Of a stretch of 64,000 nt of DNA, positions 17,567 through 53,439 are shown piece by piece. Made by a program: the position numbers and the translations under genes. Position 1 is the stretch's first letter. Every line of letters begins with the position of its first letter. This DNA comes from Ruminococcus sp. (GTDB lineage: Bacteria > Bacillota > Clostridia > Oscillospirales > Ruminococcaceae): the NCBI RefSeq assembly GCF_017549005.1, contig NZ_JAFYYT010000007.1, positions 141,247-205,246 of the forward strand, read 5' to 3'. Under the pieces are notes generated by a model. That model saw nothing but the letters and a program-made list of their open reading frames with translations, was not told where the DNA came from and did no database searches.

Positions 17567-20500
17567 CTAGTTAACTTTGTTGACTGATTTTTGTGAATAA
17601 ATTACAAGTATCGCCGCAGCGTCTACAGCGTCAATAATGCCGTTATTATTCGTATCAGCGTATTTTCGCCTTTCATCGGGTATCTCTCCCTCTTTGCCTG
17701 TCGAAACAGCCGCATAATGCCTGAGGACCCTTGCCGCATCTACTGCGTCAACATAGCCGTCAGCGTTCACATCTCCCGTCTCATTCTCTACAGGCGGTAT
17801 ATACAGGGACTGTGATGCAAATGAGGAATCAGTAGCCGAATAGCGTATATAGCAGCCTTTCGACCTGTCTACTACCCTGCTCGACTTGTATTCCATACCG
17901 ATGAGCCTGCTTACCTGCTCCTCAGTCACGCCGCTTCTTTGTGCCATAAGCCCGGTAAATTCCTCAGCGCTGTAGCCGTAGTCCTCGGCAAGTGCTTCAA
18001 GAGCCATCTGCGGAACATATCCCTCATAGGTTACCTCGCAGTCGTATACGCCGTTATATGTGTACCTTCCGTCGCTTACCCTGGAAATATCGTTGATATC
18101 GGGTTTTATTCCAAGAGCCTTCGGTATCTCGAACTTTACAGGCTCGCTTTCAAACTTTCCCCCGCCGCCTCTGACTATAAGTGTAAAGGTCTCGCCTGGG
18201 ATCACATTGATATAACAGAGCCCGAAGGTATCGGGATCGACAGTATCACCCGATATCAGCCTGCCCTTTGCCTTAACAAGATCCATAAGCTGTCCGTGCT
18301 CTATCATCAGCTCTGCCCTTTCGGCAGCTTCTGCATCGAGCGGACCTATTGCCTCGCTTCTGAAATTAATGGAAATATTGGAAATATCATACCTCTCAGG
18401 CACCTGTACGGGTATCTCCACGCCGTTCTTTATGGCTGTGAGCTCCATGCCTGCATAATCGAGAACTTTGTCCATAACGGAAAGTTCCTTTCCGTCGGGA
18501 GCGATTATCTTATCGGCAATAGAGGAGCTGATCACGCCTTTTTCCTCATCAAAGCCGATAAGCGCCCTGTTTACATGGAACGTTACCGTATTTTCAAGGA
18601 CGTTTTCACCCGATAGCTTGATAACAATATCGGTAGTGCCGAACTGTACGGGCACACTTTCTATCCATTCTCCACTTTTATACTTCTTTCCGCCGTATTC
18701 TGCGTCATATACCGTACCAAGACATAAGGAGAGCTTTTCCGTGCTTGTCGGGATATAAATACTGAACTCCTTCTCGGAAATACGCTCCGCATAGCGCAGG
18801 ATACCGTTGTTCCTGTACGCCGTGGGGATATATCCTATCCAGTTGAACTCCGCGGTTTTCGGATAAAAACTGCGCTTTGAAAAAGCTTTTGCCCCCTCAC
18901 ATTCGCATATCGCACTGATAGTTGTATTTCCGTTTATTGCAAACGGCTCTTTGTACGCCTCTGCTTCACCGCCGTCCTTGAAACAGCGGATATTCTCAGA
19001 ACTGCCTCCGTAGGAAATGCTCACCTTTTCGTCCAGCGGAACAGCTCCGCCATGATGCGAGAAGTTAACCTTGCCGACAGGATCGGTATATGCTTTTAAA
19101 GTAAGATTTCCCAGTCTTATTTTAAGGTCGCCTTTTGCAAAGGTCTCCTTGTAGTTTTTCTCGCTTTCGGCTGCTTTTTCGAGAAGTTCCGTATCAGTTT
19201 CCTCAAGTCCGTCGTAAAGCTGCTCAATAAAGGAGTCAAGCAGATCCTGCTTTTCTTCCTCGCTCAAAGTCACATCTTCATCAGTTACGTCGTTCCATTC
19301 CTTGCCGTCAGTGCTGAAAAAGCTCTGATTCTCGCCTGTATATTCCTTTATTTTCGAGTCCTTTGTGTAGGAGCTGAGGTCATAGTACTTCTCGTCGCTC
19401 TCCCTGACGTAAAGACTGCTTTCCAGCGGCAGTACAAAAGGAGAATCTTCACAGAAAAGCTTCACGACTACTGCAAATTTCTCGTTTTTGTCAAGGATAA
19501 CAGGCTTTTCAAGGTCAAGTGTAAAAAATCCCGTATTATCACATCTGCCTTTAGTGACCTCCGAAGCCTTTCCCGAAGACGGATCAGTTCCGTCGGTCAG
19601 ATCCGTATATATGGTTATTTCATAATCAGTTCCCGCATTATAGATATATGTGCCGACCGCGCTGAGCTGTTCATCTCTTTCAGCTGTAAAAATATCAGCC
19701 ATATATGACGGTCCCTCTTCCTCGGGAGTATCATACGCCGAAAGCGTCTGTATCGGAATAAAACTGTCATACTGATAGATATTTTCGTGCCCGTCTGCGT
19801 CGTCAAGCTCAAAAACCGCGAAATCCTCAAGGGATCTGTCATAGTAGGATATCCATATATAGCCGTCCTCACCGTCATTTGTTCCCCAGCTGTTCTTGCA
19901 CAGCCATGCGCCGTTTCCGTCGGGAGAGTTGCGGAACTTATCCGCCGGGAATGTATCGTCCCAGCCGACTACAGTCACAGCATGATTGGCAAAACGGGGC
20001 TTGCGCTTTGAATTCGAGGTGCTGTACTCTCCGTTCCAGTTGCGCTTTTTGTCGGACATATAGGAAACATCGACTGCGTTTCCCTTGTATACAAAGCCCT
20101 TTATCATGTTATTTATGTCGCCGAAGTTCTCTCTGTCCTTATCGTAATCAAAGCTGTAGGCATTTCTCATATGATAGTCGGACTGCCTCTGCATATGGTC
20201 GACCTCCGACGTATTATCGAAGAACCTGGTATTTGCATACGGAAGTCTGCTCTCATTGACAGGTCCTATCCACTGTGACCAGGCATTGGATACCATTCTC
20301 GAGTTGCCGCCCTCGCCGATAACGTCCTCAACGGCAGTTGAAGCAGAATACAGCTGATCAAATCCGTAATAGGGGTAATAAGCCGTGTGCAGCTCAGAAA
20401 GGTCGATATAAGGGACTTCCGACAAAAGACTGGTCTCCGCGCTTGCGATTGCGGCATGAGCCCAGCAGGTACCGTATGTGCCCTGAGATTTCACCGACGT

Positions 20501-20809
20501 TGAACCATAGACCGTTCTCATATCAAAGCTTTCGGGGAAAGAAACGCTGTCAGGCGCAGTTTTCTTATATGACGGACAAACCGCTCCGTAAGCCGCCATT
20601 GGTTCAAATTTACTGCCGTCGCCGCCTACGCATTTGAGCACAGGCATTGACAAAGAGCCGGACTGCGACTGCAAAGAAGCTCTTTTACGTCCGCTTTCAC
20701 CGAGTTCCAAGCCTTTTAACTCTGCCGCAAAAGCAGAAAACGGTACAGAAGCCGCTGCAATGACAAAAGCTGCAGCCGCAGCCGTAAATTTTCCTGTCGG
20801 ATTTCCCAT
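17567..20809 (-). CDS. Secreted papain-like (C1) cysteine protease with C-terminal dockerin
   Basis: About 1080 residues. A signal peptide (~1-29) is followed by a C1A peptidase domain with GTYGTCWAHA (catalytic Cys ~115), NHAVTVVGWDD (His) and CKNSWGTNDGEDGY (Asn). A lectin-like/beta-sandwich region, a segment resembling a chitobiase C-terminal beta-domain, and further unassigned modules follow. The end is a type I dockerin with two Ca-binding repeats (DVNADGYVDAVDAARVL and DTNNNGIIDAVDAAAIL). The start at 20809 has a GGGAGAGA site. It should be exported and docked on a cellulosome or cell-surface scaffold, perhaps to process proteins or attack plant or microbial proteins; that role is inferred. 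Confidence 0.9.
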   Translation of the reverse strand: MGNPTGKFTAAAAAFVIAAASVPFSAFAAELKGLELGESGRKRASLQSQSGSLSMPVLKCVGGDGSKFEPMAAYGAVCPSYKKTAPDSVSFPESFDMRTVYGSTSVKSQGTYGTCWAHAAIASAETSLLSEVPYIDLSELHTAYYPYYGFDQLYSASTAVEDVIGEGGNSRMVSNAWSQWIGPVNESRLPYANTRFFDNTSEVDHMQRQSDYHMRNAYSFDYDKDRENFGDINNMIKGFVYKGNAVDVSYMSDKKRNWNGEYSTSNSKRKPRFANHAVTVVGWDDTFPADKFRNSPDGNGAWLCKNSWGTNDGEDGYIWISYYDRSLEDFAVFELDDADGHENIYQYDSFIPIQTLSAYDTPEEEGPSYMADIFTAERDEQLSAVGTYIYNAGTDYEITIYTDLTDGTDPSSGKASEVTKGRCDNTGFFTLDLEKPVILDKNEKFAVVVKLFCEDSPFVLPLESSLYVRESDEKYYDLSSYTKDSKIKEYTGENQSFFSTDGKEWNDVTDEDVTLSEEEKQDLLDSFIEQLYDGLEETDTELLEKAAESEKNYKETFAKGDLKIRLGNLTLKAYTDPVGKVNFSHHGGAVPLDEKVSISYGGSSENIRCFKDGGEAEAYKEPFAINGNTTISAICECEGAKAFSKRSFYPKTAEFNWIGYIPTAYRNNGILRYAERISEKEFSIYIPTSTEKLSLCLGTVYDAEYGGKKYKSGEWIESVPVQFGTTDIVIKLSGENVLENTVTFHVNRALIGFDEEKGVISSSIADKIIAPDGKELSVMDKVLDYAGMELTAIKNGVEIPVQVPERYDISNISINFRSEAIGPLDAEAAERAELMIEHGQLMDLVKAKGRLISGDTVDPDTFGLCYINVIPGETFTLIVRGGGGKFESEPVKFEIPKALGIKPDINDISRVSDGRYTYNGVYDCEVTYEGYVPQMALEALAEDYGYSAEEFTGLMAQRSGVTEEQVSRLIGMEYKSSRVVDRSKGCYIRYSATDSSFASQSLYIPPVENETGDVNADGYVDAVDAARVLRHYAAVSTGKEGEIPDERRKYADTNNNGIIDAVDAAAILVIYSQKSVNKVN

Positions 20810-20859
20810 ATTATCTCTCCCTTCACCATCTCCCGCACTTCCGAGGAAAATACAAGTCA

Positions 20860-20888
20860 ATTATACCACAAAAGCCTGTTTTTGTAAA
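20860..20888 (-). promoter_or_regulatory. Sigma-A promoter of the dockerin protease
   Basis: TTTACA (20883-20888), 17 bp, TATAAT (20860-20865) on the minus strand, immediately downstream of the terminator of the preceding gene. The protease is therefore transcribed alone. Confidence 0.8.
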
Positions 20889-20942: not shown

Positions 20943-23471
20943 TTATGCTGTAACTATGCTGTCAGCCTTGTGAAGCTTGAGCTTTTCAACAGCCTGTTCT
21001 CTCATCTTGTATTTGAGTATCTTGCCAGCCGCATTCATTGGGAAACCGTCAACGAAATCAACATATCTCGGACACTTGTGCTTTGCCATACGTGCGAGAC
21101 AGAAGTCCTTGATCTCCTTTTCAGTAGCAGTTTCGCCGTCCTGAAGAATGATACACGCCATTATCTCCTCGCCGTAGTCCTCATCGGGAACGCCGATGAC
21201 CTGTACGTCCTTTACCTTTGGATATGTATAGAGGAAGTCCTCGATCTCCTTGGGGTAGATATTCTCGCCGCCGCGGATTATCATATCCTTGATACGTCCT
21301 GTTATCTTGAAATAACCATCCTCGGAGCGGCGTCTTGCAAGGTCTCCTGTGTGGAGCCAGCCCTCGCTGTCGATAGCTGCGGCTGTAGCCTCAGGCATTT
21401 TATAGTAGCCCTTCATGATATTGTAGCCTCTTGCAACGAACTCGCCGTCAACATCGTCTGGGAGGTCTTCATTGGTCTCGGGATCAACTATCTTGCACTC
21501 AACGCCGAAGATAGGTCCGCCGACTGTATTTACGCGCTGTTCCAGTGAGTCGGTAGTCTTGCTCATAGTTGTTGCGGGAGAAGCCTCGGTCTGTCCGTAA
21601 GTGATGCAGATCTCGCTCATATGCATTTTTTCGATGACCTCTTCCATAGTCTTTATCGGACACGGAGAGCCTGCCATGATACCCGTTCTCATATACGAGA
21701 AGTCGGTGCTGTCAAAGTCCTTGTGACCGAGCATAGCGATGAACATAGTCGGTACGCCGTGGAAACAGGTTATCTTCTCCTGATTTATGCAGGCAAGTCC
21801 CTTTCTTGGTGAGAAACGGGTTATAGGCGACATGGTCGTACCATGCGTCATGGACGCAGTCATAGCCAGAACCATGCCGAAGCAGTGGAACATAGGCACC
21901 TGTATCATCATGCGGTCTGCTGTGGAAAGATCCATGCAGTCTCCGATTGCCTTGCCGTTGTTTACTACATTATAGTGTGTGAGCATTACACCCTTCGGGA
22001 AACCTGTAGTTCCCGAGGTGTACTGCATATTTGCAACATCGTGGATATCAATTGTCTTTCTGACGCGCTCTACCTCGCTGTACGGAACGTTCTTCGAGAG
22101 CTCGACAGCCTCCTCCCATGTGAAGCAGCCGTTATTCTTTGAATCAATGGTGATAACGTTCTTGAGGTAAGGAAGTCTTGCGGAATTGAGCTTGCCTGCC
22201 TCGCAGGTCTCAAGCTCGGGGCAGAGCTCCTTGATGATATCAACGTATTTAATATCCTTGATACCGTCTATCATTACAAGAGTCATGGTATCGGACTGTC
22301 TCAGCAGATACTCAGCCTCATGGATACGGTATTCTGTGTTCATAGTTACAAGAACTGCGCCTATCTTTGTGGTCGCCCAGAAAGTGATGTACCACTGAGG
22401 AACGTTTGTAGCCCATATAGCAACATGGTCGCCCTTCTTTACGCCCATTGCAAGAAGCGAACGCGCAAAGCTGTCCACATCGTCACGGAATTCGGGATAG
22501 GTCCTTGTATAATCGAGCTCGGTATAGCGGAAAGCGTACTGATTCGGGAACTGCTCGCATATACGGTCGAGTATGTCTGGGAATGTATAGTTGAGGATAC
22601 GCTCCTTCGGCCACGGATACTGTCCGTCACCTCTCATATTGGTCTGAAGCGGGTGCTTGTGCTTTTTCTTGTAAGGAGCCATATACTCGGCAAACTGTGG
22701 TATAACGATACCTGCATCACTGAGGTCGCGTGCCCAGCGCTTTACCCATTCAAGGGAGATATAGCCGTTGTAGTTGATAGTGTCAAGAGCTTCTATCATA
22801 GCCTTTACGGGAATATCACCGGTGCCCATGATACGGTACTCGACCGTGCCGTCCTCGCGCATAACACTGTCCTTGACCTGTATGTACTTTATGTACTCGC
22901 CGAGATTAGCCACCGTAGTTTCGGGAGCTTCACCGTGATAGCGGTAGGGATGGTGCATATCCCACAAAGCTGCTACCTTGCGGCTCTTCACCTCGTCAAG
23001 AAGCTTTGCAAGACGTGCAGTATCGGAATAAACGCCGTTTGTCTCGACAAGAAGTGTAACATTGTACTCCTCGGCAATTGGAACAAGCTTTTTCAGAGCC
23101 TCTGCAACGTACTCGTCATCGACCTCGTCCACAGGATCGGGAGTAAGGTCAGCGAGTATCCTTATATATGAAGCGCCAAGCTTGCCTGCAAGCCTGGCAT
23201 ATGCCTTTATCTCGTTTTCAGCTTCCTGGTACTTGTCCTTGAATTTAAGGCAGGCGCCTGAAGAAAGACATGGTATCTCAAGTCCGAGAGACTGAAGCTT
23301 AGCAATAGTGGCAGGTAGCTGAGCCTCGGTAAAAGGCTGAGCCTTGACAGAGAATATCTCGTTACCGAGTCCTCTGATCTCAATTCCGTCAAATTTGAAA
23401 TCCTTTGCCATTGAATAAATGTCTGTCCACGACCATTCCGGACAAGCAAGTGTTGAAAATCCAATTTTCAA
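20943..23471 (-). CDS. Fusion: sugar-phosphate isomerase/epimerase-like TIM barrel + acyl-CoA synthetase
   Basis: About 842 residues. Residues ~1-275 form a xylose-isomerase-like TIM barrel (AP-endonuclease-2 family) with metal-ligand-like segments VETNG, WDMHHP and LEWVKR. Residues ~290-842 are a complete ANL adenylating enzyme: P-loop YTSGTTGFPKGVMLTH, TYGQTEASPA, GWLHTGDLA, GRIKDMIIRGGENIYPKEIE and NAAGKILK (catalytic Lys), closest to fatty/carboxylic-acid-CoA ligases. I favour a TTG start at 23471: AAGGA lies 9 nt upstream and the product begins MKIGFSTLACPEW, whereas the ATG at 23480 touches the AAGGA. Substrate unknown. Confidence 0.88.
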   Translation of the reverse strand: MKIGFSTLACPEWSWTDIYSMAKDFKFDGIEIRGLGNEIFSVKAQPFTEAQLPATIAKLQSLGLEIPCLSSGACLKFKDKYQEAENEIKAYARLAGKLGASYIRILADLTPDPVDEVDDEYVAEALKKLVPIAEEYNVTLLVETNGVYSDTARLAKLLDEVKSRKVAALWDMHHPYRYHGEAPETTVANLGEYIKYIQVKDSVMREDGTVEYRIMGTGDIPVKAMIEALDTINYNGYISLEWVKRWARDLSDAGIVIPQFAEYMAPYKKKHKHPLQTNMRGDGQYPWPKERILNYTFPDILDRICEQFPNQYAFRYTELDYTRTYPEFRDDVDSFARSLLAMGVKKGDHVAIWATNVPQWYITFWATTKIGAVLVTMNTEYRIHEAEYLLRQSDTMTLVMIDGIKDIKYVDIIKELCPELETCEAGKLNSARLPYLKNVITIDSKNNGCFTWEEAVELSKNVPYSEVERVRKTIDIHDVANMQYTSGTTGFPKGVMLTHYNVVNNGKAIGDCMDLSTADRMMIQVPMFHCFGMVLAMTASMTHGTTMSPITRFSPRKGLACINQEKITCFHGVPTMFIAMLGHKDFDSTDFSYMRTGIMAGSPCPIKTMEEVIEKMHMSEICITYGQTEASPATTMSKTTDSLEQRVNTVGGPIFGVECKIVDPETNEDLPDDVDGEFVARGYNIMKGYYKMPEATAAAIDSEGWLHTGDLARRRSEDGYFKITGRIKDMIIRGGENIYPKEIEDFLYTYPKVKDVQVIGVPDEDYGEEIMACIILQDGETATEKEIKDFCLARMAKHKCPRYVDFVDGFPMNAAGKILKYKMREQAVEKLKLHKADSIVTA

Positions 23472-23476
23472 AATAA

Positions 23477-23695
23477 TCATTCCTTTTCATTATTGGTATT
23501 GCTACGTTTCAAATCATCAGTCTCGACCTGAAGTTCTTCAGCGCTGTAATCCTTTCTGTCAAAGCCCGAAGATGTCATATATGCCTCCGCCTGCTTCTTT
23601 GTGCGAAAGCGGCGGGCAAATTTACTGTTATATACCGAAAATCTCGGAGAAACCACAAACATTTCCTCTGGGATATGCCTTATGACCCATTTCAC
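23477..23695 (-). CDS. Small basic hypothetical protein
   Basis: 72 residues, not recognised. Starts with GTG at 23695 behind a GGAGGGAG site; the ATG two bases upstream is followed at once by a stop and so cannot be the start. N-terminal half is basic with aromatic residues (RHIPEEMFVVSPRFSVYNSKF), then KKQAEAYMTSSGFDRKDY and an acidic/polar tail. Its stop overlaps the start region of the fusion gene, so the two are translationally linked. Possibly a small DNA- or RNA-binding or partner protein; no evidence beyond charge and context. Confidence 0.6.
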   Translation of the reverse strand: MKWVIRHIPEEMFVVSPRFSVYNSKFARRFRTKKQAEAYMTSSGFDRKDYSAEELQVETDDLKRSNTNNEKE

Positions 23696-42468: not shown

Positions 42469-42499
42469 AATCCCCTTGCTTTCGGCAGGGGGATTTTTC
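42469..42499 (+). terminator. Terminator of the AraC-family gene
   Basis: 11-bp stem with one G-T pair (42469-42479 with 42485-42495) and a T-run. Confidence 0.88.
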
Positions 42500-42555: not shown

Positions 42556-42584
42556 TTGCAATTGTTTGGATATTGTTGTATAAT
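42556..42584 (+). promoter_or_regulatory. Sigma-A promoter of the MBOAT-FkbH-ACP operon
   Basis: TTGCAA (42556-42561), 17 bp, TATAAT (42579-42584), then a ~130-nt A/T-rich leader before the first gene. I see no strong structure in that leader. Confidence 0.75.
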
Positions 42585-42723: not shown

Positions 42724-44124
42724 ATGGTATTTTCGAGACTATTCTTCATATATATTTTTCTCCCTGTCTGCCTGTTGTGCTATGCACTGGCAAGAGGGAC
42801 CAAACATAAAAATACGGTGTTGATCATTTTCTCGCTGATTTTTTATGCCTGGGGCGAGCCCGTTTATATTTTCCTTATGCTGGCAACAGCCGTAGTCAAC
42901 TACGCTGCTGCGCTTTTCATCGGAAAGTATCAGGGCAGGGCCGGAGATACTGCCGCGACTGTTACCGCTGTGGTATACGACCTTCTCATGCTCGGCGTAT
43001 TCAAATACAGCGGCTTTATCGTGGAAAATATCAACGCCCTTTTTTCATGCTCATTGCCTGTCCCAGATATAAGGCTGCCTATAGGTATCAGCTTTTACAC
43101 CTTCCAGACCATTTCGTACATTATCGACTGTCACTGGGAAAAGGTAAAGCCACAGAAGAGCTTCAAGAACTTTCTGCTCTTCCTCACGCTATTCCCTCAG
43201 CTCATCGCAGGTCCTATCGTAAGATACAGCTCCATTGAAAAGGAGATAAACGAGCGTACCATTCTGATGAGCGACGTTTCATACGGTCTGAACAGAGTTG
43301 CCCTCGGTCTTGCGAAAAAAGTCCTGCTTGCAGACCAGCTCAGCCTTATAGCTGAAAGTTTTCTCGGCAATATAGGCGGCTCGACCATGCTTGGAGCATG
43401 GTACGGCGCCATAGCATACGGAATGCAGATATATTTTGACTTTTCGGGATATTCCGATATTGCTATCGGTCTTGGACGCGTTTTCGGCTTCCACTTTTAC
43501 GAAAACTTCGATCATCCTTTTATGTGCAAAGACATTACGGAGTTCTGGCAGCGCTGGCATATCTCCCTCGGAACCTTTTTCCGTGATTATCTCCTCTACA
43601 TACCAATATTCGGCAAGCGCAGAAAATACGGCGGACTCTTCCTCGTATGGCTCTGTACCGGCATATGGCACGGTGCAAGCTGGAACTATGTCATCTGGGG
43701 TCTTTACTACGGGCTTTTCATTTTCATCGAGCTGCTTATCGGAAAGAAAAAGATGAAAAAGGTACCTGTTTTCATACGCCACATCTACAGCAAGTTCGTT
43801 ATAATCATCGGCTTTGCCATATTCTACTTCGAGGATCTCGGAAAGCTCGGAACATTCTTCAGGACAGCTTTCGGCTTCGGAAAAAACGGCTTTGTCGCAG
43901 TACAGGACAAGATATCCTTGGTAAACAACATCTTCCTTATCGCTGTGGCGGTCATCTGCTGTTTCCCGCTTATACGCACCATAAAGAATGTTACGGACAA
44001 GCGTTTTGCCGCAAAAGCTACTATCTCCTCGGCAGCTGCCGTTGTTTCCGCACTGCTGCTGGTGATAACGAGCATCGTGCTTGTTGACGCGACTACTTCC
44101 CCATTCCTTTATTACCAATTCTGA
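42724..44124 (+). CDS. MBOAT-family membrane O-acyltransferase (AlgI/DltB-like)
   Basis: 466 residues with about eleven hydrophobic helices. Conserved segments of the AlgI/DltB branch are present: PIGISFYTFQTISYIIDC, LFPQLIAGPIVRY, ITEFWQRWHISLGTFFRDYL and the catalytic-His region CTGIWHGASWNYVIWGLYYG. Such enzymes move an acyl group across the membrane onto an outside polymer (alginate, teichoic acid, peptidoglycan). First of five tightly packed genes with a DHHW protein, an FkbH-like loader and a carrier protein, so the donor is probably carrier-bound. The acceptor is unknown. The AAGGCGG site is 8-9 nt upstream. Confidence 0.93.
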   Translation: MVFSRLFFIYIFLPVCLLCYALARGTKHKNTVLIIFSLIFYAWGEPVYIFLMLATAVVNYAAALFIGKYQGRAGDTAATVTAVVYDLLMLGVFKYSGFIVENINALFSCSLPVPDIRLPIGISFYTFQTISYIIDCHWEKVKPQKSFKNFLLFLTLFPQLIAGPIVRYSSIEKEINERTILMSDVSYGLNRVALGLAKKVLLADQLSLIAESFLGNIGGSTMLGAWYGAIAYGMQIYFDFSGYSDIAIGLGRVFGFHFYENFDHPFMCKDITEFWQRWHISLGTFFRDYLLYIPIFGKRRKYGGLFLVWLCTGIWHGASWNYVIWGLYYGLFIFIELLIGKKKMKKVPVFIRHIYSKFVIIIGFAIFYFEDLGKLGTFFRTAFGFGKNGFVAVQDKISLVNNIFLIAVAVICCFPLIRTIKNVTDKRFAAKATISSAAAVVSALLLVITSIVLVDATTSPFLYYQF

Positions 44125-44139
44125 CAAGAGGAACACATA

Positions 44140-45615
44140 ATGAGCAAGAACACAAAGAACACGGACGGAGAAAAAGAAAAAAACAGCTCCGCAGAGACAA
44201 ACAGACGTCCAGAACCTGCTATTTCCATAGAGGCCTCGGACCGTCAGGGAACTTCCATAGACATTCCCATAAAAGCAAAAAAACTGAAAAAACAGCAGCG
44301 CAAAAAAGCTATGAACCGCATTTCACTTGCAAATATACTGCTTATCAGCGCTGTTTTTGCAGGCGGATTCGTATATGTAACGCTTCTGCCACATGAGACA
44401 AAAGCTGACGACGAGAACCGTTTACTGACAAAATTCCCGAAATTCAGCGTAAAATCCTATACAAGCGGTGATTTCACAGATGGTATCGCGGATTATTTCG
44501 ATGATACTGTCCACGCAAGGGCCGATATAAAAGAATTCATCGCCGATATGCTCATGCCGCTCAAGGGCATGAAATACGGCGGCGAAAAAGCCGAGCTCTA
44601 CGGCAGCGGCTTTGAAAAGCCCGCAGCTGCTGCAACAACGACCGCTGCAACAACGGCGTCAGTCCGCACTCTTACAACTATTGCCGTAGAGCAGCCGACA
44701 ACCACTGTGACCGAGCCTGAAGAAGATAAAACTGCCGACGGAGAGCTCACGAACAATATCCTGATCGTAAACAAGCGCGGTGTTAACCTCTACGGCGGCG
44801 CATGGGGCTCTGAACAGGAATATGCCTCATATCTCAATGCCTATAAGGAAGCTCTCCCGAATGTGAATATCTATTCAATGGTGCTCCCTACCGCAAGCTC
44901 TTTCTATCTCCCCGACGAGTACAAAAACCTCGCTCAGAGTGAAAAAGAGGACTTTGACAGGATAGAAGCCGCTCTCGGCAACGTTATGTCCGTAGACGCA
45001 TACACGGCTCTTGAAGCACACAAGGACGAGCCCATTTACTCGCGCACCGACCATCACTGGCAGCCCCTCGGCGCTTATTATGCCGCACAGCAGTTTGCTC
45101 TGACGGCAGGAGTGCCTTTTCCCGATATCTCTGAGTACGAAAAGGTGACTCTCCCGGGCTATGTGGGAACTCTCTATATGTACACGCAGAGCGCGACTCT
45201 GCTGAATAATCCCGAGGATTTCGTATACTACAAACCAAGGACAAACGTCAGCGTGACGCAGTATGATACTCATTTCGGAAATCCCGTTGCCGCCGACCTG
45301 CTCCTTGACCCGTCACAGATGCCGAATTCGGGATACTATATGGTATTCGGCGGCGATGAAAGAATCGTCCATGTGAACACCGAATGCAGGAACGGAAGAA
45401 CTCTTGTGATCTTCAAGGACAGCTACGGAAACGCTCTGCTTCCCATGCTTACAAGCTCGTTTGAGCACATTTACCTCTGCGACATCAGGTATTTCGACCT
45501 CAATGCCGCCGATTTCATCAGGAACGTTCAGGCTACCGACCTGCTGTTCTCAATGTGCTCCTTCTCGGCAGTCGGCGTGAACCGCTACAATATCTACAAT
45601 AATCTCATAAAATAG
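44140..45615 (+). CDS. DHHW-family (AlgJ/AlgX/DltD-like) secreted partner of the MBOAT enzyme
   Basis: 491 residues: a ~60-residue basic cytosolic tail, one membrane helix (~64-84), a short Ala/Thr-rich linker (~165-200), and an outside SGNH-like domain. Key motifs are YSRTDHHWQPLGAYYA (DHHW, giving the Asp/His pair) and FKDSYGNALLPML (catalytic Ser region). In alginate and PatB/DltD-type systems such proteins complete acyl transfer outside. 15 bp after the MBOAT gene and 8 bp before the FkbH-like gene, so all three are one unit. Confidence 0.9.
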   Translation: MSKNTKNTDGEKEKNSSAETNRRPEPAISIEASDRQGTSIDIPIKAKKLKKQQRKKAMNRISLANILLISAVFAGGFVYVTLLPHETKADDENRLLTKFPKFSVKSYTSGDFTDGIADYFDDTVHARADIKEFIADMLMPLKGMKYGGEKAELYGSGFEKPAAAATTTAATTASVRTLTTIAVEQPTTTVTEPEEDKTADGELTNNILIVNKRGVNLYGGAWGSEQEYASYLNAYKEALPNVNIYSMVLPTASSFYLPDEYKNLAQSEKEDFDRIEAALGNVMSVDAYTALEAHKDEPIYSRTDHHWQPLGAYYAAQQFALTAGVPFPDISEYEKVTLPGYVGTLYMYTQSATLLNNPEDFVYYKPRTNVSVTQYDTHFGNPVAADLLLDPSQMPNSGYYMVFGGDERIVHVNTECRNGRTLVIFKDSYGNALLPMLTSSFEHIYLCDIRYFDLNAADFIRNVQATDLLFSMCSFSAVGVNRYNIYNNLIK

Positions 45616-45623
45616 GAGAAAAA

Positions 45624-47429
45624 ATGAAAGAACTCTGCTTTCCTTTTGACAGTCAGAATATACTGCGCCGCAGACCTGCCCTCAGAAAGCAGCTCCTGTC
45701 TGACGGAACAGTACGTATAAAAAAGAAAATTGCCGTACTTGGAGGCTCGACTACCGATCATGCAGTTGCCGCCCTGGAGCTTTTTCTGCTCAATTTCGGC
45801 ATAGAGCCCGAGTTTTACCAGTCTGAGTACAATAAATTCTATGAAGACGCCGTTTTCGGCAATCCTGAACTTGAAAGCTTTGCCCCCGACGTCATATATA
45901 TCCACACCACCTCGCGCAATCTCACAAAGCTCCCCGCCGGTCCTGCTGTAAGACCCGAACAGGTCGAAAGGGACCTCAATGAACAGTTCGCGTATTTCCG
46001 TCAGGTGTGGGAAAGTCTTATGCAGCGCTTCAACTGCCCCATAATACAGAACAATTTCGAGCTACCGCTTTTCAGGCATACGGGAAGCTACGACTGTTGG
46101 GGAAATACCGGCCACGCAGCGTTCATTGAGAGACTCAACGTTATGCTCTCGGACTATGCGCGTTCGGTAAACGGTCTGTATATACATGATATCAACTATC
46201 TTTCCGCTGTCTGCGGACTAACAAACTGGCACGACACGGAGGCATGGTATCTTTACAAATATGCTATGAGCACTGCTGTTATCCCCGACCTTGCATACAG
46301 TCTTGCCTGCATTATCAAGTCACTGTACGGAAAGAACCACAAGGTCATAGACCTTGACCTCGATAATACTCTATGGGGTGGAGTCATAGGTGATGACGGT
46401 CAGGACGGTATCGAGATAGGCCCCGAGACCGCTGTGGGACAGTCTTTCACGGAGTTTCAGAGCTTTATCAGAGGCTATAAGGATTATGGCGTGCTCCTTG
46501 CAATATGCTCCAAAAATGACGAAGAAAACGCTCTTTCGGGACTTGAACACCCGAGCAGCGTACTGAAAAAGTCGGATTTCGTATCCATAAAGGCAAACTG
46601 GGAGCCAAAGGACCGTAATATTGCCGAATCGGCTCAGGAGCTCAATCTCGGACCTGACAGCTTCGTATTCATAGACGATAATCCTGCGGAATGCGCTATC
46701 GTTGAAGGACAGCTCCCGATGGTGCAGACCATTCATTCAAGCAGCGTCCATGACGCTATGTATAAGCTTACACGAGGCGGATATTTCGAGGTGACTTCGG
46801 TCTCGGACGACGACCTGCGCCGCTCGGAGATGTACGCTGCCAACGCTCAGAGAGCTGCTCAGATGAAGAGCTTCGGCAGCTATGCGGACTACCTCGCAAG
46901 CCTTGAAATGAACGCTGTTATATGCGGTTTCAAACCTGTTTACATACAGCGTATCACTCAGCTCATCAATAAGAGCAACCAGTTCAACCTTACCACTCGC
47001 CGCTACACCGAGAATGAGATACAGGAGGTCAGTCAGAGCTCCGGCCATATCTGCCTTTGCGGAAAGCTTCTCGATAAATTCGGCGATAACGGCATTGTTT
47101 CCGTGGTTATCGGCAGGATAGACGGCGATATCCTCCATATGGAGCTGTGGCTCATGAGCTGCCGTGTCCTCAAAAGAGATATGGAACTTGCAATGCTTGA
47201 CGAGCTTGTGCGTCATGCAAAGGAAAAAGGTATAAGAACTATAAAGGGGTATTACTATAAAACCCCGAAAAACAGCATGGTAGCCGGGCTTTACGGCACT
47301 CTCGGCTTTACGCCCGATGAGAAGCATGAAAACGGCGATTCTGTATGGCATTTAGACCTTGAAGGATACCAAAACAGGAATAAAGTCATAAAAATTCTTG
47401 AAAAGGAGAACGAAGATGAACACAAATGA
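45624..47429 (+). CDS. FkbH-like HAD-IIIC protein (carrier-protein loading of a three-carbon unit)
   Basis: 601 residues. An N-terminal SGNH-like domain (~30-215; IAVLGGSTTDH) is followed by a HAD-IIIC phosphatase domain whose nucleophile motif DLDLDNTLW has Asp245/Asp247, and VFIDDNPAE further on. The C-terminal ~200 residues form a GNAT-like domain (SNQFNLTTRRYTENEI ... MSCRVLKRDMELAML). Characterised FkbH-type enzymes take 1,3-bisphosphoglycerate, remove phosphate and load the glyceryl unit on an acyl carrier protein for polyketide or other pathways. The next gene is a carrier protein, overlapping by 14 bp. No polyketide synthase is present, so the unit probably goes to the MBOAT enzyme (inference). 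Confidence 0.9.
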   Translation: MKELCFPFDSQNILRRRPALRKQLLSDGTVRIKKKIAVLGGSTTDHAVAALELFLLNFGIEPEFYQSEYNKFYEDAVFGNPELESFAPDVIYIHTTSRNLTKLPAGPAVRPEQVERDLNEQFAYFRQVWESLMQRFNCPIIQNNFELPLFRHTGSYDCWGNTGHAAFIERLNVMLSDYARSVNGLYIHDINYLSAVCGLTNWHDTEAWYLYKYAMSTAVIPDLAYSLACIIKSLYGKNHKVIDLDLDNTLWGGVIGDDGQDGIEIGPETAVGQSFTEFQSFIRGYKDYGVLLAICSKNDEENALSGLEHPSSVLKKSDFVSIKANWEPKDRNIAESAQELNLGPDSFVFIDDNPAECAIVEGQLPMVQTIHSSSVHDAMYKLTRGGYFEVTSVSDDDLRRSEMYAANAQRAAQMKSFGSYADYLASLEMNAVICGFKPVYIQRITQLINKSNQFNLTTRRYTENEIQEVSQSSGHICLCGKLLDKFGDNGIVSVVIGRIDGDILHMELWLMSCRVLKRDMELAMLDELVRHAKEKGIRTIKGYYYKTPKNSMVAGLYGTLGFTPDEKHENGDSVWHLDLEGYQNRNKVIKILEKENEDEHK

Positions 47430-47658
47430 AATAATCCCGCGCCTTAACGAAGTTTTCAGGGATGTATTCGATGACAGGACTATATCCGTTAGCGAAAGAA
47501 CAACCGCTGACGATATCGAAGACTGGGACAGTCTTGCTCATATCAATCTTGTTGCGGCTGTGGAAAACGAATTCGGTCTGCGTTTCAAGATGAGAGAGGT
47601 CTCATCAATGAAAAATGTGGGCGACATGATAAACATAATATCCGAAAGAGGCAGATGA
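47416..47658 (+). CDS. Acyl carrier protein
   Basis: 80 residues, four-helix carrier fold with the phosphopantetheine motif DWDSLAHINL (Ser39). The ATG at 47416 has an AAAGGAG site and overlaps the FkbH-like gene by 14 bp; the stop overlaps the next start (ATGA). Not next to fatty-acid genes, so it is a dedicated carrier for this operon, likely charged by the FkbH-like enzyme. Confidence 0.93.
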   Translation: MNTNEIIPRLNEVFRDVFDDRTISVSERTTADDIEDWDSLAHINLVAAVENEFGLRFKMREVSSMKNVGDMINIISERGR

Positions 47659-48494
47659 TGTCAAAAAAGCTGAAAAAGCGGCTCATTATTGCCGCGGTAC
47701 TGCTGATCCTGTCTGCTCTTTCCGCATGGGGCTTTACCATGAAAACCATCATATATAACGTGAAAACGGACAAGCTTGACGAAAGTATCAGGATAGTTTT
47801 CATATCAGACCTTCATAACTGCTTTTACGGCGACACAAAGCAGTCAAAGCTCATACGTGAAGTTAAGAACAGCTCCCCCGATATAGTAGTTTTCGGCGGC
47901 GACGTTATCGACGCATACGGCGGTACGAAGTACGCCCTGCACCTTATCTCAGAACTCAGCAAAGAGTATCCCTGTGTTTATACTCCAGGAAATCACGAAG
48001 AAATGCGCGACGATAAGGAAGAGTTTTACGAAGAAGTACGTAAGCTCTGTCCCTTACTTCTCGGAGAATACAGGGAAATAAGCGTAAAAGGGCAGGATAT
48101 ACGTATCTACGGCGCTCTTGACGATACAGCCTGGGGAAAGAAAAGAACTCAGCTCGAGGAGTGCTTCGATACTCTCGACGACAGCTGTTACAATATACTT
48201 TTAGCGCATCAGCCCGAGCAGATAGACAGCTACCGAAACAGCGGCACTGGCAGGCAATTCGACCTTATCCTTTCGGGACACGCCCACGGCGGTCAGTGGA
48301 GACTGCCCAAACTACTGGATCAGGGGCTGTATGCTCCGGATCAGGGCATACTTCCCGATTATACAACGGGTATGTATGAATACGGCAGTACGACGCATAT
48401 CATCAGCCGCGGACTCGCAAGACCACTGCGGATGATATTCATTCCCCGTATCTTCAATCGTCCCGAGCTTTCGGTAATTACTATAGGGCAATAA
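47655..48494 (+). CDS. Membrane-anchored metallophosphoesterase (YkuE-like)
   Basis: 279 residues: a membrane helix (~9-28) then a calcineurin-like domain with all metal motifs: ISDLHN, GGDVID, GNHE and GHAHGGQ. Two adjacent ATGs (47655, 47658) are possible starts. Related YkuE/LpxG-type enzymes hydrolyse lipid or nucleotide pyrophosphates at the membrane. As last gene of the acyl-transfer operon, it may act on a lipid-linked intermediate, but may just be a passenger. Confidence 0.88.
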   Translation: MMSKKLKKRLIIAAVLLILSALSAWGFTMKTIIYNVKTDKLDESIRIVFISDLHNCFYGDTKQSKLIREVKNSSPDIVVFGGDVIDAYGGTKYALHLISELSKEYPCVYTPGNHEEMRDDKEEFYEEVRKLCPLLLGEYREISVKGQDIRIYGALDDTAWGKKRTQLEECFDTLDDSCYNILLAHQPEQIDSYRNSGTGRQFDLILSGHAHGGQWRLPKLLDQGLYAPDQGILPDYTTGMYEYGSTTHIISRGLARPLRMIFIPRIFNRPELSVITIGQ

Positions 48495-48535: not shown

Positions 48536-48564
48536 TTGTAATTTCATATCATTAATGGTATAAT
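48536..48564 (+). promoter_or_regulatory. Sigma-A promoter of rlmB
   Basis: TTGTAA (48536-48541), 17 bp, TATAAT (48559-48564). It opens a second plus-strand unit after the acyl-transfer operon; leader ~80 nt. Confidence 0.78.
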
Positions 48565-52011: not shown

Positions 52012-53439
52012 ATGCCACACAGATATAACGGCAGAGATGAAAACAACATTCCTAACACAGACAATGAAGAAACAATGCTCATATCGGGAGTTCCCGATGA
52101 ACATGAGGAAGAAAGACGCGAACTGCCGCCGCTCAGACGAGTCAACAGACGTGTTCCCCGGCAGAATACACAGCAAAGACGGGAATATGCTCCCGCTCAG
52201 GAGGAAAAGCCTGTGTATTCGCAGTCTCAGCTGCCGCCGCAGTTTCCCCATTCTTCCGCTCCTCCGCCGCCTGTTCGCCACGATGACAGCGACGGGGATT
52301 ACTATGACTATAACTCTCAGCCGCCTGAGAATTACAGCGGAACGGGACATTCAGCTCCCGCGCCTGCACCGTTACCGTCTGCTCCCCCTCCTGCTCACCA
52401 CAGACAGACGGACAGAAAAAAGCAAAGACCTGCACCGGAAGCCCCTCAGGAGCAGCCGAAGCCAAAGAAAAAGAAGCATCATAAATCCCTGCTCAGAAGA
52501 ATTGTCGGCAGAGTATTCAAAGTAGTCCTTGTTCTGTTCCTTCTTGTGTTCGGAGTTTATTCATGCACCTCCGTCAGCCTCATAAGAAAGGTTAATCAGG
52601 TACCCTCTGAAAGGCGCAGTCACTATGCCAGCGATGTCGGCAGAGGTCACGTAAGAAGTGTTCTTGTCATCGGTACAGACGGCAGAAGCGCCGAGGAACG
52701 CGGACGTTCCGATTCGATGATACTCGTTTCCATGAACAGCAAGACCAATGAGATCATCATGACATCTTTCATGCGCGACAGCTATGTTGAGATCCCCGAT
52801 AACGGCTGGGATAAGCTGAATGCAGCGTATGCATACGGCGGTCCCGATCTTCTTATGGACACTATCGAATACAATTTCGACGTCCGCATAGACGACTATG
52901 TATCCGTGGATTTTGCCTCATTCGTGTCGGTAGTTGACGCTGTGGGCGGAATAGATATCGAAGTTTCCGACGCAGAAGCCGAGCAGATAAACATAATCCT
53001 TATCTCCGAAGTGAACGAGCTCATGGGCGACGACAGGAACTCCGATCTCCTCAGCGGCGGCGGAAAGCTTCACCTCAACGGAAAACAGGCTCTCTCCTAC
53101 TCGCGTATAAGGAATGTCGGAAACAACGACTTCGAGCGCACTGAGCGTCAGCGCAGGGTAATGTCACTTATCTTCGCAAAACTAAAGTCCTTCAAGCCGT
53201 CAATGTTCAAGAATCTTGCCTCAGACGTTATACCTGACGTAAGCACAAATATGACCGAACTTGAAATGTATCTTCTCTCGCTGAGAGTCCCCGTTGCTGC
53301 AGGATATGAGACAAAACAGATACAGATACCTGCCGAGGGCACATACTACGGAGATGATGTTGACGTAGGAAGCGTTCTTCAGGTCGACAGAAATGCAAAT
53401 ATAGACGTCATTGATAAGGAAGTATTCTCAAAAGGATAA
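52012..53439 (+). CDS. LytR-CpsA-Psr (LCP) family cell-wall glycopolymer ligase
   Basis: 475 residues. An unusually long cytosolic N-terminus (~165 residues), rich in Pro, Gln and Arg, a membrane helix (~170-190), then the LCP domain with VLVIGTDGRSAEERGRSDSMILVS, MTSFMRDSYVEIP, KLNAAYAYGG and the Arg-rich HLNGKQALSYSRIRN motif. LCP enzymes transfer teichoic acids or capsule polymers from undecaprenyl lipid to peptidoglycan. AAAGGAG site. Proximity to the acyl-transfer operon (3.5 kb) suggests a shared wall-polymer theme, only an inference. Confidence 0.93.
   Translation: MPHRYNGRDENNIPNTDNEETMLISGVPDEHEEERRELPPLRRVNRRVPRQNTQQRREYAPAQEEKPVYSQSQLPPQFPHSSAPPPPVRHDDSDGDYYDYNSQPPENYSGTGHSAPAPAPLPSAPPPAHHRQTDRKKQRPAPEAPQEQPKPKKKKHHKSLLRRIVGRVFKVVLVLFLLVFGVYSCTSVSLIRKVNQVPSERRSHYASDVGRGHVRSVLVIGTDGRSAEERGRSDSMILVSMNSKTNEIIMTSFMRDSYVEIPDNGWDKLNAAYAYGGPDLLMDTIEYNFDVRIDDYVSVDFASFVSVVDAVGGIDIEVSDAEAEQINIILISEVNELMGDDRNSDLLSGGGKLHLNGKQALSYSRIRNVGNNDFERTERQRRVMSLIFAKLKSFKPSMFKNLASDVIPDVSTNMTELEMYLLSLRVPVAAGYETKQIQIPAEGTYYGDDVDVGSVLQVDRNANIDVIDKEVFSKG

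Follow-up and report, generated by a model that had tools for sequence, protein, structure and literature searches.

The 64,000-nucleotide window analysed here is a stretch of contig C52 of a Ruminococcus sp. genome (3.33 Mb, 93.8% complete). At 42724..48494 it carries five plus-strand genes encoding an MBOAT O-acyltransferase, a DHHW protein, an FkbH-type loader, an acyl carrier protein (ACP) and a phosphoesterase, with intergenic distances of 15, 8, -14 and -4 bp (Table 1). The open reading frames (ORFs) and family matches agree in these points with an earlier note on the same DNA, which had read the genes as a Dlt-like surface acylation operon. Sequence comparison suggests that the operon probably encodes a system for envelope acylation of the MBOAT/SGNH kind, which depends on a carrier protein charged by FkbH.

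The FkbH protein matched TIGR01686 at 285.8 bits (cut-off 146.65) and also FkbH_N and HAD-IIIC. It comprises an SGNH-like N-domain (residues 33-235), a HAD phosphatase domain (238-389) and a GNAT-like C-domain (430-582), and contains the motif DLDLDNTLW with Asp245 and Asp247. According to the available part of PMC3625739, the FkbH homologue Tmn16 loads glyceryl from 1,3-bisphosphoglycerate onto ACPs in vitro. The predicted structure was of moderate quality (mean pLDDT 77.7, pTM 0.54, 11 sequences); among 50 rows of VIA-align comparison with this model, 3slr alone covered more than one domain (residues 7-393) and none covered all three. Asp245, Asp247 and Cys513 were kept in 120/120 relatives of a 121-row alignment, the 14 more distant FkbH proteins included. 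A named survey was performed by FkbH alignment search and took the best 80 of at least 594 confirmed candidates; the nearest named FkbH among these was that of Ruminococcus flavefaciens 007c (L053, 76% identity). The stand-alone ACP next to FkbH matched PP-binding at 21.1 bits, barely above the cut-off of 20.8, and its Ser39 was kept in 114/114 alignment rows. We used the ATG at 47416 as its start (80 aa), the ORF list giving a TTG at 47398. The motif, the Asp pair and Ser39, all pointed out in the earlier note, are present, the Asp pair and Ser39 being conserved in the aligned relatives, and the TIGR01686 match above cut-off, the HAD Asp pair and the adjacent stand-alone ACP together identify an FkbH-type loader.

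An FkbH-type loader beside a stand-alone ACP is also found in glycerate-utilisation genes of the tetronate and methoxymalonyl type (Tmn16/Tmn7a; FkbH with ACP), and characterised FkbH enzymes act in secondary metabolism. The FkbH-ACP pair could supply secondary metabolism with a building block derived from glycerate, and both tetronate and methoxymalonyl uses are described in the available part of PMC7489565. Unlike those polyketide genes, the operon has no ketosynthase (KS) nearby and its likely acceptor is the membrane MBOAT/SGNH pair. A profile made from the genome's two KS proteins found KS in 0/136 loci (L047-L050 lay outside the scan and a FabH-specific profile was not used), and the two KS matches of the genome lie on contigs C41 and C7, not on C52. 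A polyketide synthase or tetronate locus was rejected on this absence, which bears out the earlier statement that no polyketide synthase lies nearby, and we consider the building-block explanation very improbable.

The MBOAT protein matched PF03062 at 86 bits (cut-off 27). DltB was its closest solved structure by sequence comparison, and its score against the DltB equivalog TIGR04091 was 153.7 bits, below the cut-off of 375. The catalytic His316 sits in a WHG motif and, like Tyr463, was invariant in 12/12 diverse MBOATs aligned. Tyr463 belongs to the C-terminal FLYYQF, overlooked in the earlier note. This fits FXYXXF, described in the available part of PMC12148441 as an acyl-shuttle motif; in DltX and PatA it is the Tyr of this motif that bears the acyl group. 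Since the MBOAT bears its own acyl-shuttle motif, DltX would not be needed. Among MBOATs longer than 420 aa in the loci examined (n=80, some of them outside the FkbH run), 71 ended in FXYXXF, 78 had Tyr at that place and 78 contained WHG. The two without the shuttle Tyr were a locus-edge fragment and L052, a distant paralogue from the window's genome; WHG was missing in L052 and L119. In the class-wide set described below, the MBOAT ended in FXYXXF in 17/28 and had a Tyr four residues from the C-terminus in 28/28. The window's genome has further MBOAT genes at L051 (C49:48070-48669), beside a GDSL lipase-like gene and ending in FMYFRF, and at L052 (C33:25457-26257), beside a DHHW gene.

The DHHW protein matched PF14286 at 138 bits (cut-off 25) and ALGX at 37 bits, and its residues ~62-84 are hydrophobic, read by eye as an N-terminal membrane anchor. 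The nearest solved structures by sequence were 4nzk, Bacillus cereus PatB1 and, weakly, AlgJ. The available part of PMC9487903 gives 4nzk as an uncharacterised protein of Eubacterium siraeum and describes the PatB1 blocks KDS, DXRY and TDHHW, with Ser, His and Asp as the triad and Arg as the oxyanion hole. In a 73-row alignment of DHHW proteins, Asp304, His306, Ser428, Asp448 and Arg450 were conserved at 97-100% and Tyr451 at 90%; DltD was not among the Pfam matches of the window's protein (E up to 1). Judged by these blocks, the window's protein belongs with PatB1 among the circularly permuted SGNH enzymes and is not a DltD. An MBOAT with the His and the FXYXXF Tyr, next to an SGNH protein with a Ser-His-Asp triad, places the two, by sequence, among the putative MBOAT/SGNH envelope acyltransferases. 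At least two successive DHHW genes (or pieces) precede FkbH in L103, L104, L111, L115, L120, L121, L143 and L163, some of those in L143 and L163 with lipoprotein-like starts, which suggests several extracellular transferases served by one carrier.

In Dlt, according to the available part of PMC12148441, a carrier protein is the acyl donor of the MBOAT, there is an acyl-Tyr shuttle motif, and an SGNH protein completes the transfer. The operon likewise has a carrier, an MBOAT, an acyl-Tyr shuttle motif and an SGNH protein. Unlike Dlt, it has FkbH in place of the DltA ligase, a shuttle Tyr that is part of the MBOAT where Dlt has a separate DltX, a permuted SGNH protein of the DHHW family in place of DltD, and an ACP unmatched by a DltC model. 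The best DltA match (TIGR01734) in the genome, at its 93.8% completeness, scored 124 bits against a cut-off of 559.85; DltC was not among the 12 ACP models that matched the ACP in the NCBIfam scan (E up to 1), and the ACP profile hit 21 PDB chains, none of them named DltC. A classical Dlt system was rejected, as DltA, DltB, DltC and DltD all fell short. Of the replacement scheme in the earlier note, FkbH in the role of DltA and the ACP as carrier are supported, and in place of DltD there is a PatB1-type DHHW protein.

The operon also resembles PatA1/PatB1 (secondary cell wall polysaccharide O-acetylation, Bacillus cereus group), PatA/PatB and AlgI/AlgJ/AlgX in having an MBOAT and a separate SGNH protein, and its DHHW protein keeps the PatB1 motif blocks. 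In the available part of PMC12148441, those systems have an MBOAT with a C-terminal FXYXXF and a separate SGNH protein, and PatA-type systems are taken to use acyl-CoA, as shown for PatA. Unlike these systems, which lack a carrier protein, the operon encodes an ACP and its loader. A Dlt-type carrier together with a PatA-type fused shuttle makes the operon a hybrid, neither Dlt nor plain PatA/PatB. In a limited search of open-access full texts, no description of an FkbH/MBOAT/ACP acylation combination was found, and none of the papers listed by looser searches contained FkbH; the terms co-occur in an aeruginosin review. We regard the parts as known and the combination as new, a variant of MBOAT/SGNH acylation and not of Dlt.

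We examined whether the genes stay together in relatives. Wider stretches were examined for 20 of the 27 matched places among the relatives searched, plus two MBOAT places of the window's own genome. The order MBOAT-DHHW-FkbH-ACP was found in 12/12 same-genus loci with room on both sides (L031-L042; the ACP of L035 was seen in the stretch of that locus designated L011). The 80 loci of the named survey are labelled Ruminococcus, Lachnospiraceae, Oscillospiraceae/Ruminococcaceae and Clostridia, with one Alphaproteobacteria, and many are from gut and rumen. Contig ends included, the same-strand run around FkbH held an ACP in 74/80, an MBOAT in 59/80 and a DHHW gene in 36/80. An ACP lay within 3 kb of FkbH in 73/80, and where at least 7 kb was available on both sides a same-strand MBOAT lay within 7 kb in 38/46. 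Two architectures were seen. In A, the window type, the genes run in the order MBOAT, DHHW (sometimes several), FkbH, ACP, with DHHW within 3 kb of FkbH in 37 named loci; in B, 30 named loci have MBOAT near FkbH without DHHW, mostly as FkbH, ACP, MBOAT.

A class-wide draw of 393 genomes (completeness >=90%) served as control. FkbH was found at E <=1e-60 in 48 of them, the window's own genome included, and MBOAT at E <=1e-8 in 260. Besides the window's own locus, which was set aside, there were 26 high-scoring full-length FkbH loci (~900-1000 bits); all of these were taken, together with 14 of 16 stand-alone loci of lower score. The selection excluded fragments and any FkbH domain within an open frame of >700 aa. 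A same-strand MBOAT lay within 7 kb in 23/26 high-scoring versus 2/14 lower-scoring loci (Fisher p 6e-6; one of the 14 sits on a 5.3 kb contig). The expectation from MBOAT counts and genome sizes was ~0.47 of 26, a rough figure because at most five candidates were scored per genome, and chance co-location of FkbH and MBOAT was rejected. An ACP lay within 3 kb in 26/26 and 12/14, respectively. On a FastTree phylogeny of FkbH, the 107 window-type rows were divided from the remaining 14 at a split of 100% local support where long branches meet; L169 and L170, the two low-scoring loci with an MBOAT, formed with L171 their own branch within the 14 and scored highest there. An apparent exception, G054, has an MBOAT and a DHHW gene just upstream, and the MBOAT of L044 is present, overlapped by a longer antisense ORF. 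The genus and class counts speak against a strain-unique order and a separation of FkbH from MBOAT in relatives, the outcome that the earlier note had named as refuting its proposal, and are thus in its favour.

The linkage conserved across two gene orders, the invariance of catalytic residues and the lack of DltA and of a nearby KS support the core of the proposal, already present in the earlier note, that FkbH loads the ACP and that the MBOAT and an extracellular transferase move the group to a surface polymer. Carrier-fed MBOAT/SGNH acylation in general is likely. A number of observations weigh against the proposal. FkbH relatives occur patchily, in 25 of the 60 relatives searched, own genome included. 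Among the well-flanked named loci, 8/46 have no same-strand MBOAT within 7 kb, and three of these (L068, L100, L113) also have no ACP within 3 kb; in L085, FkbH adjoins an MBOAT and the examined stretch contains no ACP; and in L119, the MBOAT without WHG lies within an FkbH-ACP run. A same-strand MBOAT within 7 kb is missing from three of the 26 class loci: L157 has it on the opposite strand, and at L143 and L163 FkbH and the ACP are accompanied by two DHHW genes with no MBOAT near. On the supporting side, in G692 and G718, the genomes of these last two loci, and in G001, another genome in which FkbH has no adjacent MBOAT, an MBOAT with 54-68% identity to the window's lies elsewhere; its neighbour is a DHHW gene in G001 and one of weak similarity in G692. 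Again against the proposal, MBOAT/DHHW pairs without FkbH exist (C33 of the window's genome; PatA1/PatB1), and the pair could consequently use acetyl-CoA. The MBOAT and the DHHW protein would then be an ordinary O-acetylation pair like PatA1/PatB1, co-transcribed with an FkbH and an ACP serving another pathway. The DHHW match to PatB1 and weakly to AlgJ, its KDS, DXRY and TDHHW blocks, and the shuttle motif fused to the MBOAT as in PatA are consistent with this; the linkage of FkbH to MBOAT in two orders, with and without DHHW and far above chance, and the lack in all 136 loci of a KS able to use the ACP argue against it and make it quite unlikely.

The nature of the transferred group was considered from the other genes in the FkbH runs. 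In the 80 named loci these encode a MaoC dehydratase (11), a split transketolase (7), an SDR (6), a 202-aa HAD protein (6), an aldo-keto reductase (3) and a glyoxalase-fold protein (3), the cluster identities resting on one or two scanned members each. This suggests that in some B loci tailoring enzymes alter the carrier-bound group before export, so that, as a further point against the proposal in its glyceryl form, the final group there need not be glyceryl; a route from glyceryl-ACP to lactyl-ACP by dehydration and reduction is speculation. Likewise against it, L073, L148, L149 and L150 have a same-strand AMP-ligase gene behind the ACP, at a distance of 276-399 bp; these loci represent three genomes from a single genus and one further locus whose FkbH is identical. 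FkbH and ACP might accordingly feed the MBOAT/SGNH proteins with lactyl, pyruvyl, another acyl derived from glyceryl-ACP, or an acyl group loaded differently, an explanation that draws on these enzyme clusters and on the AMP-ligase behind the ACP in one genus. On the other side, the 12/12 genus loci hold, from MBOAT to spoU, only the core four genes and the phosphoesterase (10). We consider a group other than glyceryl unlikely for the window's operon, and glyceryl fairly likely for loci of the window type.

Several further features of the surveyed loci were observed. The N- and C-halves of the transketolase are two genes in L087 (10800-12548), L093, L100, L102, L110, L114 and L130; 6 of the 7 loci also carry a MaoC dehydratase and 3 an aldo-keto reductase. 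These enzymes possibly serve on-carrier acyl remodelling or a sugar pathway. In L089, L095, L101, L118, L122 and L131, and also in L160 and L166, FkbH-ACP-MBOAT is followed by the 202-aa HAD-type protein, the MBOAT ends in FIYARI or FIYATI and not in FXYXXF, and no recognised SGNH gene was found in the runs. An anchored SGNH-like protein, the candidate partner in B, forms a 12-member cluster present in 12/80 named loci. Its assignment comes from one sub-cut-off Pfam match (L072, 25 bits) and from an invariant G-x-S plus later Asp and His in six members aligned; no Pfam family was found in the five members scanned (L079, L102, L106, L112, L114). The SGNH partner is thus putative in part of the B loci. 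A clear GDSL protein is a separate cluster in 4/80 named loci. L127, the locus labelled Alphaproteobacteria, combines FkbH, ACP and MBOAT, a MaoC-SDR protein lying between them, on a 4.8 kb contig of a metagenome-assembled genome, and is perhaps mis-binned.

A ligase as general loader of the ACP was also considered. Using five ligase matches of the genome as phmmer queries, we found AMP-ligase homologues in 12 ORFs of the 136 loci, four of them close downstream of an ACP, and this candidate was rejected. The window itself encodes, at 20943-23480 on the minus strand, an 845-aa fusion of a xylose-isomerase-like TIM barrel and an AMP-binding acyl ligase, and close homologues of it are those directly downstream of FkbH-ACP in L073, L148, L149 and L150.

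For the operon we infer every catalytic step, the glyceryl identity and the polymer, as follows. FkbH would bind 1,3-bisphosphoglycerate, and its HAD domain (Asp245/Asp247) would strip the phosphate. By way of the GNAT-like domain (Cys513), the acyl group would reach the phosphopantetheine attached to Ser39 of the ACP, so that glyceryl-ACP is formed. At the cytoplasmic face, the MBOAT would use His316 to take the group over from the carrier and hand it on to Tyr463, which lies in the shuttle motif at the C-terminus of the MBOAT itself. The DHHW protein (Ser428-His306-Asp304, with Arg450) would take it onto its Ser and esterify an exported polymer. The polymer is most likely a secondary cell wall polysaccharide, because the DHHW family points there; this is the least supported step.

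The phosphoesterase matched Metallophos at 57.5 bits (cut-off 21.5). It was present in 10/12 genus loci (in two pieces in L036) and also in L043, and absent from L034 and L042; it was recognised in 2/80 named loci (L053 and L055, both labelled Ruminococcus) and in 0/40 class loci. Its place in the operon, as the earlier note described it, holds for the window, and with its patchy presence across the genus, named and class loci we rejected it as a core part and regard it as accessory. A terminator-like hairpin and promoter-like sites flanking the genes fit a single five-gene transcription unit. Such scans are weak evidence, with 13 promoter-like sites against a mean of 9.0 in shuffles and 6 terminator-like sites against a mean of 5.6.

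Table 1. Genes, predicted functional residues and candidate boundary signals of the operon, in window positions.
Feature	Position	Strand	Basis
MBOAT O-acyltransferase, 466 aa	42724..44124	+	ORF list and Pfam/NCBIfam
C-terminal acyl-shuttle hexapeptide FLYYQF, Tyr463	44104..44121	+	FXYXXF motif of DltX/PatA
DHHW protein, 491 aa, PatB1/AlgJ-type SGNH transferase	44140..45615	+	Pfam, motif blocks
TDHHW block V, triad Asp304 and His306	45046..45060	+	Alignment and PatB1 motif description
Ser428 nucleophile, KDS block I; DIRY block II is Asp448-Arg450-Tyr451	45421..45423	+	Alignment
FkbH-type ACP loader, 601 aa	45624..47429	+	NCBIfam, structure model
HAD catalytic Asp245-Leu-Asp247	46356..46364	+	Motif, alignment
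Cys513, GNAT-like domain, candidate acyl-enzyme residue	47160..47162	+	Invariance; role inferred
Stand-alone acyl carrier protein, 80 aa	47416..47658	+	Pfam PP-binding
Phosphopantetheine site Ser39 (WDSL)	47530..47532	+	Motif, alignment
Calcineurin-type (YaeI-like) phosphoesterase, 279 aa, hydrophobic N-terminus; accessory	47655..48494	+	Pfam Metallophos
Terminator-like hairpin 3' of upstream AraC gene; operon boundary	42469..42495	+	Consensus match only
Sigma-70-like promoter TTGCAA-17-TATAAT ahead of MBOAT gene	42556..42584	+	Consensus match only
Promoter-like site ahead of spoU; downstream operon boundary	48536..48564	+	Consensus match only

Downstream of the operon, spoU and then an LCP-family (LytR-CpsA-Psr) gene follow in 11/12 genus loci, the exception being L038, with other genes at the spoU place; this may be plain synteny. 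In the window the LCP gene lies a few genes downstream at 52012-53439 (plus strand). We take LCP to be a wall-polymer attachment family; this neighbour may hint at which polymer is acylated, or may reflect synteny alone. Elsewhere in the window, at 17567-20860 on the minus strand, lies a gene for a 1097-aa papain-like protease that also has lectin-like and dockerin domains, the dockerins being consistent with a cellulosome-bearing Ruminococcus.

Beyond this operon, we lean slightly towards a class of envelope acylation on FkbH-loaded carriers in gut Clostridia, in which glycolytic 1,3-bisphosphoglycerate would yield glyceryl-ACP and a hydroxy-acyl group, direct or remodelled on the carrier by dehydratase, reductases and split transketolase, would be esterified to surface polymers by MBOAT/SGNH proteins. 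If so, Dlt would not be the sole carrier-fed system, nor acyl-CoA the sole other donor. The operon predicts a second carrier-fed branch in Ruminococcus, Lachnospiraceae, Oscillospiraceae and other Clostridia, and with it a mass shift of the ACP, acylation of Tyr463 and base-labile glycerate on a wall polymer. Such a branch would tie surface chemistry to an intermediate of glycolysis and place a glyceryl ester or a derivative of it on the envelopes of gut commensals.

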